Assembly: GCF_000514775.1 (NCBI RefSeq)
Contig: NZ_AZWO01000013.1
Location: 200 to 64,199 of the forward strand
DNA: 64,000 nucleotides
Direction of reading: 5' to 3'
Source of the DNA: Salinispora pacifica CNR114
GTDB taxonomy: Bacteria; Actinomycetota; Actinomycetes; Mycobacteriales; Micromonosporaceae
The stretch's first letter is position 1; each line of letters begins with the position of its first letter. A program made the translations under genes and the position numbers. Under the pieces are notes generated by a model. The model made no database searches and was not told the origin of the DNA. It was given only the letters and a program-made list of their open reading frames with translations. Shown one piece after another: positions 34,330-38,539 of the stretch.

Positions 34330-34590
34330 ATGGCAGGCACGGCGGAACAACGTAACCACGATGGTCGGGCAATACCTCCCAGCCGAGACGGCGTGGTCGA
34401 GCACTTCGTACTGGGTGATGTCTGCGTGGCACTGGACTTCAGCGGTCACGTGCAGGTCATCGCGGACAACCGCGTGAGCCTGACGGCAAGCTCAGAGCGA
34501 GCCGAAGCTGACCCGGCGCGACGTAGGGCCCGGTCCGGGCGACACGCTCCGCCACAACCGGCGCCACCTCGAACATCGCCGCCACTCTGA
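34330..34590 (+). CDS. Small hypothetical protein, doubtful
   Basis: An open frame of 86 codons with an ATG two bases after the epoxide hydrolase stop. It starts MAGTAEQRNHDG and contains FVLGDVCVALDFSGHVQVIAD, which looks protein-like in its first half (a beta-rich small domain); the second half (ARRRARSGRHAPPQPAPPRTSPPL) does not. It overlaps the eroded upstream end of the phosphotransferase-like gene. It may be a remnant. Confidence 0.25.
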   Translation: MAGTAEQRNHDGRAIPPSRDGVVEHFVLGDVCVALDFSGHVQVIADNRVSLTASSERAEADPARRRARSGRHAPPQPAPPRTSPPL

Positions 34591-35492
34591 GCACCGACTG
34601 CGGACCCGTGTTCTGCAAGGCCATTCGGACCGCTCACCCCATGTCCCGGATGCATCGCATGGAAGCGCGTGTCAATCCATGGCTCCCGGACACGGCACCG
34701 CGACTACGGTGGGTCGTCGAATCCGAGGGCTGGCTGGCCCTCGGATTCGACCACGTGGAGGGCCGGCACCCGGACCTGACGCCCGGCTCGGACGACCTGC
34801 CGGCTATCGCCGATGCTCTGACCGGGCTGTCCCAGGGGCTGACGCCCTGCCCGCCAGTTCGCGTCCAGCCCGCCACCGTCCGATGGCGGAACAGGATCGC
34901 CCCGGACCTTATCGACGGTCAGACCCTGTGCCACACCGATGTCACGCCGCTGAATTTCCTTGTCGGTCCGGGCGTGGTACGTCTCGTTGACTGGTCCATG
35001 CCCATTAGGGGTGCCGCGTGGATCGATGCGGCTTTGATGATCGTCCGACTCATCCGGGCGGGCCACACGCCAGCGCAAGCCGAGTCCTGGGCAGATCGGA
35101 TCCCACCCTGGAAACAGGCATCCCCAGAGGCAGTCGGGGTCTTCGTGTCCGCCCTCGCGGCCCTGTGGGAGCAACGTCTACGTGAATACCCAGTCCCCCA
35201 CCGAAGGCAACTGGCGGAGGCCGCCCAAGCCTGGGCGGCCTCCGCATCCACTATGAGGCCCCTGGCAGAGGCTTGGGCATGGCCTTCTGCATGGCCACTC
35301 TTTGATGGTGATGAATTCGGCATCTGTCAGCACGTGCACAGCGGTCGTCGCATCGGGGCTGTGGGTCTGCTGGTGTCTCGGCGCCGGCGACCGCAAAGCC
35401 ATCACCGCGTCAGGCGCCAGCACGATCGATGCCGTGCTGGCCGACATAGGCCCCCGGTGTCGCGAACCGAGGGGCTTAGACGTTTGCGTTAG
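34527..35492 (+). pseudogene. Decayed aminoglycoside-phosphotransferase-like gene
   Basis: The frame encodes most of a phosphotransferase (kinase-fold) family protein: CGPVFCKAIRTAHPMSRMHRME and GWLALGFDHVEGRHPDLTPGS match the N-lobe, and HTDVTPLNFLVGPGVVRLVDW carries the catalytic HxD...N and DW motifs. The N-terminal beginning is lost: in-frame stops lie just upstream (TAG at 34524-34526 and a TGA before it). The usual stop also seems missing, because the frame runs on for about 75 Arg-rich residues after the expected end near the hairpin at 35214. An intact start cannot be assigned, so function is doubtful. Confidence 0.6.
35214..35245 (+). terminator. Perfect hairpin near the expected end of the phosphotransferase-like gene
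   Basis: A 14-base perfect stem (GCGGAGGCCGCCCA with its complement) around AGCC lies where intact homologues of the preceding gene would end, inside the run-on reading frame. It may be the old terminator. Confidence 0.5.
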
Positions 35493-35560: not shown

Positions 35561-36115
35561 TTAGGCGTCCTCAGTCTTGAGCTTGCCGTTTACGTAGGGC
35601 TGGGCTGGCCGCTCGAAGCAGGCCCCCGACACTCGCGAGGAAATCGTGCGGACATGGCGGAATCCCTGCTTGCGGTAGTAGTCGTGTAGCCGCGTATTGG
35701 TTGTCCAGGCGTCCAATCGTAGCCACGTCAGGCCGGCGTCATAGGCCCGACCTCCTGCCCAGTCCAGCATTTCGCCGCCCAGGTGGCTACCCGAGTGGAT
35801 CAGCGGAATCATCATCTTCGCGGCATACAGCGCGTCGGCGGGGTCGTCCTCCGGGTACCACAGCGCCTCGGGGTTCCGATCCGGCTTCCATAGGCCGTCT
35901 ACGTCCACGTACGCGGTCAGGGTAATCGTGGCCACGGGAGTGTCACCCTCCCAGACCACCCATGTCTGTCCAGCTGAAACGGTCGATGCCACAGCGGACC
36001 GTGGTAGGGGGATCGACCACTGCTCCTCACCTCGTCCGGCAAGCCATGCCACGCGTTCGCGTCGCCAGCTCATGATGGCGTCGACATCGCTCAGCCGGGC
36101 AGGAGTAATGATCAT
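35561..36115 (-). CDS. GNAT-family N-acetyltransferase
   Basis: A 184-residue single-domain acetyltransferase (residues ~5-165). The acetyl-CoA-binding region shows the pattern around LGGEMLDWAGGRAYDAGLTWLRLDAWTTNTRLHDYYRKQGF, a common GNAT form in which the last part (YYRKQGFRHVRT) closes the CoA site. Substrate unknown. Its ATG overlaps the GntR gene's stop by four bases (ATGA), so it is co-translated with the regulator and probably under its control. Confidence 0.85.
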   Translation of the reverse strand: MIITPARLSDVDAIMSWRRERVAWLAGRGEEQWSIPLPRSAVASTVSAGQTWVVWEGDTPVATITLTAYVDVDGLWKPDRNPEALWYPEDDPADALYAAKMMIPLIHSGSHLGGEMLDWAGGRAYDAGLTWLRLDAWTTNTRLHDYYRKQGFRHVRTISSRVSGACFERPAQPYVNGKLKTEDA

Positions 36116-36909
36116 TCGTGTGCTTCTTCCGGTCGGAAGCGCGCGATGATATCGGCGTCGCCGTGAGTACTGACGATCCGGTTTCGGTCGCCGGCAAACG
36201 GGGTGATGGACACACGGATTGGCCGGTCAGCGGTGTATCCAGTGCGGATGTAGTGCAGCACCGGCGTGCCAGGTTGTAGCCGTAGCAGCGTGGCCTCCTC
36301 CGGCGTGGGCATCCGCGCGGCGTACTCGTCGTAGTAGGCCACCTGCGGGTATCCGCGCTCGGACAACAGCCTGGTGGTGCCCTGCGGGATGTCCCGGGGC
36401 GACAGCAACTCCGGAACCGCCTCGACCAAGTCCATCGGGTAGTAGGTGTCCTGCACCGAGGATGGCTCGCCGTTGACGTAACGGACGCATCGGCGCAGCG
36501 CTGCGGCGGACTCGGATTCCACCTGGAGACGCCTGGCCAGGTCCGGCGGCAGAACCTCGATGGTCAGCCGGAACTCCTGTGCCGCCTCGTATCCCTGCTG
36601 CTTCACCTCCGAGCGCCACGCGTCCGTCTCGGCCCATGGGCTGGGCATCTCCGCGCGGTGCGCGTGGAAGATCAGCGTAACCTTCTCGCGGACCCGCATA
36701 CCGCCAGTGCGTCCCGGCAGCCGCTCGATCAGCCCCTCATTGACGAGCAGTGCGGTGGCGTCACGGACCGTGTTGCGCGAAACGCCGTACTGCTCCTGAA
36801 GTCGGGCCTCGGTCGGGAGCCATGCGCCCACCTCAAGATCTCCGGAGACGATGCGCGCTCGGAAGTCGTCTGCGATCTGACGGTACTTGGGTTTCGCCAC
36901 GCTCCCCAC
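36112..36909 (-). CDS. GntR/HutC-type transcriptional regulator (UTRA domain)
   Basis: A 265-residue regulator: winged helix-turn-helix at ~8-75 (KYRQIADDFRARIVSGDLEVG, LPTEARLQEQYGVSRNTVRDA) and a UTRA ligand-binding domain at ~95-255 with YVNGEPSSVQDTYYPMDL and PGTPVLHYIRTGYTADRPI. HutC-family members sense small metabolites such as sugars, amino acids or nucleotides. Co-transcribed with the GNAT gene and divergent from four small genes. A TTGGT-ACCAA inverted repeat lies just upstream of its ATG, suggesting self-repression. Confidence 0.9.
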   Translation of the reverse strand: MGSVAKPKYRQIADDFRARIVSGDLEVGAWLPTEARLQEQYGVSRNTVRDATALLVNEGLIERLPGRTGGMRVREKVTLIFHAHRAEMPSPWAETDAWRSEVKQQGYEAAQEFRLTIEVLPPDLARRLQVESESAAALRRCVRYVNGEPSSVQDTYYPMDLVEAVPELLSPRDIPQGTTRLLSERGYPQVAYYDEYAARMPTPEEATLLRLQPGTPVLHYIRTGYTADRPIRVSITPFAGDRNRIVSTHGDADIIARFRPEEAHE

Positions 36910-36918
36910 CCTCCTGGT

Positions 36919-36932
36919 TTGGTCCCAACCAA
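36919..36932. promoter_or_regulatory. Putative GntR operator 1, near the gntR start
   Basis: Inverted repeat TTGGT-CCCA-ACCAA, ten bases upstream of the gntR ATG. It shares its half-sites with the repeat at 36983-37001, and both lie in the divergent promoter region of a GntR-family gene, so autoregulation is likely. Confidence 0.55.
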
Positions 36933-36982
36933 TTTAACCGGATGAGCCGGACGGGCTTGACTGTGCTCCAGCGTGCTGAAAT

Positions 36983-37001
36983 CGTTGGTATGAAACCAAC
37001 G
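36983..37001. promoter_or_regulatory. Putative GntR operator 2, near the small-gene operon start
   Basis: Perfect inverted repeat CGTTGGT-ATGAA-ACCAACG, about 15 bases upstream of the first small gene. Same half-sites (TTGGT and ACCAA) as the site at 36919, in the mirror position relative to the other divergent gene. Confidence 0.65.
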
Positions 37002-37015
37002 TTACGGGTTGTCGG

Positions 37016-37282
37016 GTGATCGTCACCGAGGGAGCGGGCATGGACGGTGAGGGTAGGCAGGCCACGCCGGCCAACCTCCAAGCGGGAGAACTCTCCCGGG
37101 AGATGGAAGGCGTTAACCGCGTACTCGCCAACACCGCTGTACTGCTGGCTGGTCTTGACCAGGCCGACAGCGCGCGGGATCTGAGAAATCTGACGTACTC
37201 CCCGTTGCGCACCGCAGTCGAGCAGGCTGTTGATTCGGCCGCTCGCGTGACGGAGTTCTTGCGGGCGCAAGCCCGGATGTAG
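37016..37282 (+). CDS. Small hypothetical protein, first gene of divergent small-gene run
   Basis: An 88-codon frame from a GTG (80 residues from the ATG at 37040). The predicted protein is helical and acidic (GELSREMEGVNRVLANTAVLLAGLDQADSARDL, then a second helix LRTAVEQAVDSAARVTEFLRAQ). No family recognised. It begins right behind the GntR-type inverted repeat at 36983-37001. Confidence 0.55.
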   Translation: MIVTEGAGMDGEGRQATPANLQAGELSREMEGVNRVLANTAVLLAGLDQADSARDLRNLTYSPLRTAVEQAVDSAARVTEFLRAQARM

Positions 37283-37411
37283 ACCGGGCTCAGGTTATTC
37301 CACCCCTCCGCGAAGCGACAGCCCTACGCCCATCAGTCCGGATGCGCTGTGGGACCGCCCACTTCATTGGAACTGGAGGGGTAGTCCCTCCAACACCATC
37401 AAGGAGACCCA

Positions 37412-37624
37412 ATGCGAATTCGCTGGTTCCGCCGTCGAAGGGGTAACCCGCCAGCACTGGCGCGCTGCGCTAGCAAATCTCACAGCCCTGCGTTGACGCA
37501 GCGTGCTAGGCCGGTCAATCTGCCGGCGTGGATGACCCAACCCACCGTCGCCAACCCCCAGGTAGGCCGCGTCGGCTGGCTTACCCCGGCGCAGCAGTGG
37601 CGAGCCAACGGAGGCCGCTGGTGA
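37412..37624 (+). CDS. Small basic hypothetical protein
   Basis: A 70-residue basic protein (MRIRWFRRRRGNPPAL start, ending WLTPAQQWRANGGRW). A clean AAGGAG ribosome site eight bases before the ATG supports translation. The C-terminal LTPAQQWRANGG motif is reminiscent of small proteins that accompany GntR-type regulators in other actinomycetes, but no function is known. Confidence 0.6.
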   Translation: MRIRWFRRRRGNPPALARCASKSHSPALTQRARPVNLPAWMTQPTVANPQVGRVGWLTPAQQWRANGGRW

Positions 37625-37678
37625 TCGCGCACCAGCCGCCCGTCCGAAGCGCCGACAGGCGAGACTGAGGGGACGTCG

Positions 37679-37831
37679 ATGGTTGTCGCTGCTATTGCCG
37701 TCGTCGTTGGGCTCGCCGTTGGCGTGGTCCTGGGCCTGGTGACCAAGAGCCGTTCGGGCAGTTGGTGCCCCCGGTGTGGTGACCTCAAGCGCTGCCTACG
37801 TGACCACCACGCGGGCGGGAGCCGGCCGTGA
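37679..37831 (+). CDS. 50-residue membrane protein with zinc-ribbon-like tail
   Basis: Too short for most gene callers. The ATG at 37679 follows a GAGGGG site. Residues ~2-20 are a single hydrophobic helix (MVVAAIAVVVGLAVGVVLGL), and the tail WCPRCGDLKRCLRDHH has CxxC and two histidines, so a metal-binding cytoplasmic or extracellular knob is plausible. Its stop overlaps the next gene's GTG start (GTGA), a sign of translational coupling. Confidence 0.6.
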   Translation: MVVAAIAVVVGLAVGVVLGLVTKSRSGSWCPRCGDLKRCLRDHHAGGSRP

Positions 37832-38361
37832 TCCGCGCACACGACCCGATGCGCCCGCTGTGGCGGTGCCGGGCCTGCGGCGCCGACTGGCCCTGCCAGC
37901 CCGCGCGGCTCGCGTTGTTGGCTGAGTATCGCGGCAGGAGGTCAGCGCTGCTGGCCCACCAGGGCAAGCTCCTGGCCGAGGCAGCTGATCAGCTATCCCG
38001 GCTCAACGGCACCAGGCCGGACCTCAGGGAGAGGTTTGTCGACTGGTGCTGGCGGGCGGAACCCGACCACCCCACAACCAGCGCCTTCGAGCCGGGAGAC
38101 CTGGACCTGGACCTGGTGTTTCGCGGAATCGAAATGATCATCCGTAGCCACTGGGGAGGCCGGACCTGCCCCCGGTGCGCGAACAAGGGTTGCCCGCATC
38201 TCGACTGGGCCGACGGCTGGCTGGCCCGACTACGACGATCACCGCACGGCAATCAGGCAGAGCACCCCGGGCAGCGTTCCGTCACTACTTCCAGCGGAAG
38301 TGCACGAATAGCCGGCCGAAGTTCTTCGAGTCCTTCTCCACCCGATGGTAGAGCGCCTTGA
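37828..38361 (+). CDS. Conserved hypothetical zinc-ribbon protein
   Basis: A 177-codon frame from a GTG overlapping the preceding small gene. The start WRCRACGADWPCQPARLALLAEY contains CxxC plus a further Cys, and a second cluster is at CPRCANKGCPHLDWADGWL near residue 125. The core ends around residue 135; the Ser/Arg-rich remainder overlaps the convergent Smr gene. This type of protein is recurrent next to GntR genes in Micromonosporaceae, function unknown. Confidence 0.6.
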   Translation: MIRAHDPMRPLWRCRACGADWPCQPARLALLAEYRGRRSALLAHQGKLLAEAADQLSRLNGTRPDLRERFVDWCWRAEPDHPTTSAFEPGDLDLDLVFRGIEMIIRSHWGGRTCPRCANKGCPHLDWADGWLARLRRSPHGNQAEHPGQRSVTTSSGSARIAGRSSSSPSPPDGRAP

Positions 38362-38539
38362 CGTCCTTCTGATCAAGGAACCGGAGCACCCGCTTCTTGA
38401 GCTGGCCGGACCCCTTGCCGGGGATGATCTCCACCAGGGTGGCCTTCTTCGCCACCGCCTCATCGATGATTCCGCGCAGGGCCCGGTCGATGTCGGCACC
38501 CCGGTTGTAGATGTCGTGCAGGTCCAGCTTCAGCTTCAC
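38285..38539 (-). CDS. Smr-domain protein
   Basis: An 84-residue protein containing only an Smr domain (the MutS2-type small endonuclease fold): LKLDLHDIYNRGADIDRAL near the start, VEIIPGKGSGQLKKRVLRFL around residues 36-55 and the C-terminal VHFRWK. Stand-alone Smr proteins nick branched or structured nucleic acids in some bacteria, but the catalytic residues vary and activity is not proven. It ends inside the 3' tail of the convergent small gene. Confidence 0.8.
   Translation of the reverse strand: MKLKLDLHDIYNRGADIDRALRGIIDEAVAKKATLVEIIPGKGSGQLKKRVLRFLDQKDVKALYHRVEKDSKNFGRLFVHFRWK

Follow-up and report, generated by a model that had tools for sequence, protein, structure and literature searches.

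The question raised by this locus of Salinispora pacifica CNR114 is whether six adjacent genes form a single regulatory module or a joint between two units. The window, which is the whole 64,000-nt stretch that was analyzed (contig NZ_AZWO01000013.1, from a host genome of 5.87 Mb in 99 contigs), carries on its reverse strand the gene of a HutC-type GntR repressor with a UTRA ligand domain (36112–36900), followed by that of a GNAT-like acetyltransferase (35561–36115). Facing them on the forward strand are four small genes: HEL (37040–37282), P70 (37412–37624), TM50 (37679–37831) and ZR (37828–38361). All six had been called in an earlier sequence-only reading as a possible ligand-controlled module, and all six open reading frames exist, with corrections given below.

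Of the two halves, the regulator part is a conserved cassette of which no description was found; the small genes belong to a family specific to the lineage and linked for the most part with a regulator type already known. The titles and abstract openings listed in literature searches gave no description of the GntR-GNAT-HEL cassette or of P70/ZR. The reading preferred here, judged to fall slightly on the probable side, is that a self-regulated, transferable GntR/UTRA-GNAT-HEL cassette now stands upstream of P70-TM50-ZR, a family normally paired with WhiJ-type XRE-DUF5753/DUF397.

Recurrence of the GntR-GNAT-HEL cassette

In each genome search 8 to 20 candidates per genome, the best of a first look, were scored, and absences are no proof. 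A search with the single HEL sequence gave matches in 6 of 101 genomes of the genus. A HEL profile (A2) was built from 10 sequences, with E ≤ 1e-18 taken as a strong match, and gave 24 matches in 300 genomes of the family, 17 strong and 7 weaker (E 1e-4 to 1e-7). All 17 strong matches, the window included, face a divergent GntR and GNAT pair. The regulatory module proposed earlier thus recurs in its HEL part, and GntR-GNAT-HEL is a conserved cassette, beyond what chance would give. Together with L121, L122 and L154 the strong matches make up 20 distinct HEL-GntR-GNAT loci. The GNAT profile (E ≤ 1e-40) found 26 loci in 25 of the 300 family genomes.

More distant GNATs were found in 6 of 396 genomes of a phylum sample besides the window; all six have an adjacent GntR, and none has HEL within 1.5 kb. 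Among plasmids, 61 records hold a GNAT relative and one of these is close, a Micromonospora zamorensis plasmid that carries GntR-GNAT-HEL. A phage origin of the cassette was considered and set aside. The GntR protein matched PHROG 10724 at 3.3e-42, but relatives occur in only 9 of 50,697 phage records, all less than 60% identical, and no phage source was shown.

Operator-like sites

The HEL-GntR intergenic regions could be aligned across the 20 distinct loci. TTGAC is kept in all of them; in the window it lies within TTGACT (36957–36962, forward strand), the putative −35-like box of the HEL promoter, and is followed after 22 nt by the operator-like palindrome GTTGGTATGAAACCAAC (36984–37000). 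A palindrome or a substitute stands exactly 22 nt past TTGAC in 19/20 loci. Fifteen of these are of the GTTGGTATGAATCCAAC type, two of them beginning ATTGG, and four loci, all of one genus (L234, L236, L237 and L238), carry the substitute GGTAATTACC; L123 has a variant palindrome that the search pattern missed. The second operator-like site of the window, site G (TTTGGTCCCAACCAAT, 36918–36933), adjoins the GntR start. Either CCAACCAAT or CTAACCAAT precedes GntR in 15 of the 20 loci, CCAACCAAT alone in 11.

The two inverted repeats noted earlier between the divergent genes are therefore present as operator-like sites conserved across loci, to which GntR may bind. In the window alone the palindrome is unremarkable: TTGGT-N5-ACCAA with ≤1 mismatch was found once in 64 kb against 0.48 expected, which is not rarer than chance, so the evidence is its conservation across loci. 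Elsewhere in the same genome GTTGGTATGAAACCAAC had no match with ≤2 mismatches and one with 3. A generic sigma-70 scan found no promoter at the HEL TTGACT.

P70-TM50-ZR and WhiJ-type regulators

ZR was found at 18 places in its own genome and in 101/101 genomes of the genus, mostly by its N-terminal domain. P70, with a striking conserved C-terminus (GRVGWLTPAQQWRANGGRW), has 11 strong copies in its own genome; in the phylum sample it was matched in 3/396 genomes, these being the window genome (G000), one genus-mate and one weak match. At 12 of the 17 other ZR places in the genome a divergent XRE-DUF5753 regulator is present, with DUF397 beside it at 10, and 8 of the 11 P70 copies face XRE-DUF5753. 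Among 20 loci taken from other genomes (the best matches and a few more, not a random sample), 18 have XRE-DUF5753 and DUF397 and two end at contig edges. Regulator names were confirmed by Pfam on one representative each.

The exceptions within the genome are L085 with two short GntRs, L089 with an XRE-TPR relative, L084 with a TPR-like open reading frame (by eye), and L090 and L091 with neither DUF5753 nor DUF397. The window has GntR-HEL instead, and no DUF5753 or DUF397 match was found within 5 kb of the locus. Its target operon is nonetheless homologous to those that face XRE-DUF5753 elsewhere, as in WhiJ/BldB clusters.

The four small genes had been taken as one unit, which did not hold: P70-TM50-ZR forms a multicopy family of its own, most members of which face XRE-DUF5753/DUF397. 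Recurrence of the small genes with the regulator was borne out for HEL, which recurs with GntR-GNAT, and failed for P70-TM50-ZR, which is scattered without GntR. The six genes as a single unit were rejected because P70-TM50-ZR was found many times without GntR, GNAT or HEL.

The P70 leaders contain a G+C-rich stem-loop in many XRE-paired copies (L083, L093, L095, L097, L098, L110–L112, L114 and L116). On visual comparison the differences between the stems are paired, for example GGGCCGCCCC/GGGGCGGCCC and GGGTCGCCCC/GGGGCGACCC. Twenty leaders were folded against a crude two-base block shuffle; many of the G+C-rich stems gave z of −1.4 to −3.0, others about 0 or positive values, and the window −1.7.

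The junction in the window

By BLAST, 35563–37275 shares 80% identity with a locus of Micromonospora antibiotica (L157/L227), and 37498–38250 is 89–94% identical to the XRE-paired copies L081, L082, L100, L102, L103 and L104. At the same site P70-TM50-ZR-Smr is present in genome G083 with 92% identity, on a contig that ends inside P70; HEL was not matched there in the HEL search. The Smr regions of 18 other genomes were compared. G042 (L166) retains deleted P70/ZR remnants at this place, in G012 a stretch resembling ZR lies on the opposite flank of Smr (L176:3104-3187), and the remaining regions gave no DNA match to P70-ZR. In the simplest history, P70-TM50-ZR would have been present first and GntR-GNAT-HEL would have arrived in front of it.

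It may also be that the two halves are chance neighbors, joined at a recombination hot spot and not co-regulated, with P70-TM50-ZR an orphan under its own promoter or a decaying remnant. This is judged rather unlikely; the following observations fit it. HEL followed by P70 was seen in the window only, and the 129 nt that separate the two genes may conceal a promoter or a break (a simple scan found none); both points also count against the preferred reading. The deleted remnants in G042 fit a decaying operon, and 45 nt around the P70 start (37387–37431) resemble the XRE-paired copy L098 of the same genome (89%). Past ~38262, the last ~33 codons of ZR overlap the conserved Smr gene (38285–38539) in antisense. 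The left flank is a patchwork: at 34527–35489, where an APH-like kinase reading frame lies on the forward strand (probably a remnant, assigned by sequence similarity, adjoining the module and outside the unit), two segments, one of them from the kinase, match parts around the P70-TM50-ZR locus L103 of G042 that lie apart from each other, a sign of recombination between such loci.

Against chance neighbors, HEL and P70 lie on the same strand with open frames, and no terminator-like site was found in the gap. Gaps of ~70–120 nt follow HEL in at least seven other loci (L226, L229, L230, L233, L234, L237 and L238), though elsewhere the distance varies widely, from an overlap (L123) to 723 nt (L235). 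The order HEL, membrane (TM) peptide, ZR recurs in other genera, in L234 with GntR-GNAT and in L239 without. On the preferred reading HEL would be co-transcribed with P70-TM50-ZR.

The two ZR copies of the same genome that are closest to the window ZR match it only as far as residues 143–145. ZR is longer in the window and in G083 than in these copies, apparently by a run-on at the insertion point (38262–38361). No tRNA was found in the window, and a tRNA-bounded island is unsupported.

Exchange of controllers at other loci

In L155 (M. rubida) and L160 (M. sonchi) a different GntR-UTRA gene occupies the place of HEL and of the beginning of GntR. Pieces of the old GntR persist, and the GNAT, TM and XRE-TPR genes are retained; the foreign GntR of L155 is 27% identical to that of the window. 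None of the old operator-like sites was found in the upstream stretch of either locus, and that of L160 contains the inverted repeat AAGTTAG-N4-CTAACTT. In L254 the order is XRE-DUF5753, DUF397 and then a GNAT 79% identical to that of the window; L266 has the same order with the GNAT broken. The GNAT of L251 (83% identical) has a TPR protein before it and DUF397 after it. A DUF397 gene lies behind HEL in L233, and in L239 a short HEL-like gene, a TM peptide, ZR and S93 face an NsdA-family regulator (84.5 bits, cut-off 75). GNAT genes that are homologous to one another thus stand under different regulators, and so do homologous ZR/P70 genes. This suggests that these bacteria exchange the controllers of small-protein operons as ready-made units; the direction of swap given here is one that we infer.

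The same loci bear on a toxin-antitoxin-like explanation, in which the GNAT would be a toxin, GntR or HEL its antitoxin, the pair would be kept by addiction and the zinc-ribbon genes would be bystanders. A UTRA ligand domain is not known as a feature of antitoxins, which counts against this explanation. So does the GNAT standing without GntR or HEL at four loci (intact in L251 and L254, partial in L260, broken in L266), a point that is weakened because L251, L254 and L266 have DUF397 beside the GNAT, readable as another partner. The 4-nt overlap and the small helical partner are as such a pair would have them, as are the patchy distribution and the Micromonospora plasmid copy. Xre-GNAT, RHH-GNAT and Xre-DUF397 pairs are treated as toxin-antitoxin-like in PMC2701414; in Streptomyces, however, XRE-DUF397 pairs act as regulators (PMC10364602, PMC10294661). 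The explanation is considered very improbable.

Genes behind HEL and enzyme neighbors

The genes behind HEL are visible at 19 of the 20 loci; L119 ends at a contig edge. A small zinc-knuckle protein, recognized by pattern (TM-WCxxCG, the ZR N-domain, or CxxC..C..WA), follows HEL in 15/19 loci, the others being L228, L231, L232 and L235. The patterns occurred in 0/64 control stretches (≤4 kb, taken from the window and, at the same loci, from the far side), a control that favors the tally because sequences examined beforehand had supplied the patterns; the tally in turn misses members that profile searches find. A TM peptide and XRE-TPR follow HEL in L121, L122, L123 and L154, and S79/S93/S68 and GPP34 in L120, L226, L227 and L229, with a GPP34 relative also in L232.

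Maturases of ribosomally synthesized and post-translationally modified peptides (RiPPs) lie downstream of HEL in three loci. L230 encodes AmcB (530.7 bits, cut-off 425) and AmcA (59.1, cut-off 40). The ATP-grasp maturase scored 382.7 in L228 and 362.1 in L235 (cut-off 350), and the methyltransferase of L235 was below its cut-off (302 of 380). In the genome of the window itself (contig C53, L091:2471-5500), P70-ZR lies directly upstream of a small open reading frame, an ATP-grasp maturase relative (5.6e-83) and a methyltransferase relative (7.5e-71), a candidate graspetide cluster judging by these similarities. In L230 (4443-8073) the HEL operon leads into five small genes, one a ZR homologue and one with a CxxC..GCPQLDWA knuckle, and then AmcB, AmcA and a pentapeptide-repeat protein with sub-threshold Qnr-type matches only.

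Enzyme genes near the cassette would also be compatible with a drug or amine detoxification operon, in which GntR senses a toxic amine or antibiotic, the GNAT acetylates it and the neighboring APH-like kinase phosphorylates it. The kinase frame of the window is similar (1.2e-36) to an APH-like kinase that faces GntR-GNAT in L164 (the L258 locus). A pyridoxal phosphate-dependent decarboxylase and a histone-deacetylase-fold enzyme stand beside GntR-GNAT-HEL in two Micromonospora loci, L231 (4556-9760, by Pfam) and, as annotated, the M. zamorensis plasmid (L268:8706-15077), there with an APC permease; these neighbors hint at amine metabolism and bear on the idea put forward earlier that the effector may be an acetylated molecule. 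On the other side, the window kinase frame has no Pfam match of its own and kinase similarity is confined to few loci, the enzyme neighbors differ from locus to locus, and no enzyme of solved structure is a strong match for the GNAT. Detoxification, though compatible with the preferred reading, is regarded as improbable.

Gene products and boundaries

The GntR protein has the winged helix-turn-helix and UTRA domains of the HutC subfamily (Pfam GntR 62.5 bits, cut-off 27; UTRA 69.3 bits, cut-off 23.8) and matched YvoA in the PDB at 2e-13. Its start had been placed three codons upstream at GTG 36909; GTG 36900 is probable because the proteins of relatives begin at that point.

The GNAT-like gene (184 amino acids) had been left out of the range first given for the module (36112–38361). 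Its product is 82–86% identical to four relatives. Pfam GNAT matches were all sub-threshold (best 18.4 bits, cut-off 27), PHROG 1249 (acetyltransferase) was matched at 1.8e-6 and GNATs in the PDB at E 8e-4 at best. Structure prediction failed (predicted local distance difference test score, pLDDT, 43) because five near-identical sequences were too few, and the model was not used.

HEL (80 amino acids) probably begins at ATG 37040 and not at GTG 37016 as first called, since its closest relative L157 starts there; eight others start ~10 residues later. AlphaFold2 predicts a helical hairpin (pLDDT 84.6). A fold search of the PDB gave 256 matches, none with E ≤ 0.001, a helical hairpin being little informative in this respect. 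The predicted hairpin would suit protein contacts and lends slight support to a partner role.

P70 is a basic 70-residue protein with an MRxRWF start, and TM50 has a single hydrophobic segment followed by WCPRCG. ZR has an N-terminal WRCxxCGxxWPC domain and a C-terminal CPRC..GCPHLDWA knuckle, and is conserved to ~38262. The overlaps of GntR with GNAT by ATGA and of TM50 with ZR by GTGA were both confirmed. That the four small proteins belong to no named family also stood: nothing exceeded a curated cut-off in Pfam or NCBIfam, and the best PHROGs match had E 0.018.

Proposed working of the cassette

In the working proposed, a GntR dimer would bind the two palindromes at both promoters and repress gntR-gnat and hel-p70-tm50-zr. 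The ligand, a small molecule that is plausibly an amine or amino acid, would bind the UTRA domain and release GntR, and the GNAT would acetylate this ligand or a relative of it and so reset the switch. HEL would be a small protein partner, as DUF397/BldB is for WhiJ. The operon would yield small peptides, of zinc-knuckle and membrane type, whose genes at other loci stand ahead of cargo such as RiPP clusters. DNA binding, ligand and GNAT activity are inferred. By analogy, GntR/HEL is proposed as a ligand-gated alternative to WhiJ/DUF397.

Besides the two points at the HEL-P70 joint, several observations weigh against this reading. The seven weak HEL-like matches have no GntR-GNAT within 1.5 kb. 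HEL is missing at 9 of the 26 GNAT loci, namely the four without GntR given above, L249, L258 and L259 with GntR, and L263 and L267 with a damaged GntR; the cassette is thus also subject to decay or operates without HEL. The second operator, before GntR, is looser, its pattern being absent in 5/20 loci, and the GNAT assignment is weak.

A wider proposal is put forward tentatively and is doubted more than it is believed. In Micromonosporaceae two unrelated, interchangeable controllers, WhiJ/DUF397 (XRE) and GntR/HEL/GNAT, would serve one plug-in family of small-protein operons leading to variable cargo that includes RiPP clusters. HEL would be the functional counterpart of DUF397/BldB, the GntR branch would make the switch answer to a small amine-type ligand, which the GNAT would remove, and the window would have been caught soon after an exchange.

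Pairs of the WhiJ/BldB type have expanded widely among actinobacteria, and what they do biochemically is poorly understood. If the preferred reading is true, a ligand-gated GntR cassette before homologous operons would give a handle (a ligand and defined operators) on the function of the operons. It would also provide a genomic marker for RiPP clusters, since such clusters lie downstream of three HEL cassettes and of one P70-ZR copy in the genome of the window.

Comparison with known systems

The locus most resembles the WhiJ/AbaA/BldB paralogue clusters (XRE-DUF5753 and DUF397) of Streptomyces, such as iosA-whiJ9-bldB9 (PMC10294661), in having a helix-turn-helix (HTH) regulator and a small partner beside small variable targets, in many copies per genome. 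It differs in that its regulator is GntR/UTRA with an overlapping GNAT-like gene and no DUF5753/DUF397 gene is present, in that HEL gives no DUF397 match, and in that its sites are inverted repeats where WhiJ9 binds direct repeats (PMC10294661). DUF397-HTH pairs are expanded in Salinispora tropica, with 20 copies (PMC2701414).

The putative toxin-antitoxin pairs Xre-GNAT and Xre-DUF397 (PMC2701414) are likewise small mobile units of an HTH regulator with a GNAT or DUF397; the window has GntR/UTRA in place of Xre, and HEL in addition. For GNAT pairs, resistance was deemed likelier than toxin-antitoxin function by Makarova 2009 (PMC2701414).

Graspetide and AmcA/AmcB RiPP clusters of actinobacteria have the HEL cassette upstream at L230, L228 and L235 and P70-ZR upstream at L091, and DUF397/DUF5753 are reported beside graspetide groups 11 and 13 (PMC13097080). 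The window differs in that a search for relatives of AmcB and of the L235 ATP-grasp maturase found none there; other RiPP enzymes were not searched for. With the HutC-subfamily GntR regulators YvoA/NagR and DasR the locus shares the GntR winged helix-turn-helix and UTRA domains, and it differs from them in its partners, which are a GNAT-like protein, HEL and zinc-knuckle proteins and not sugar or histidine catabolic genes.

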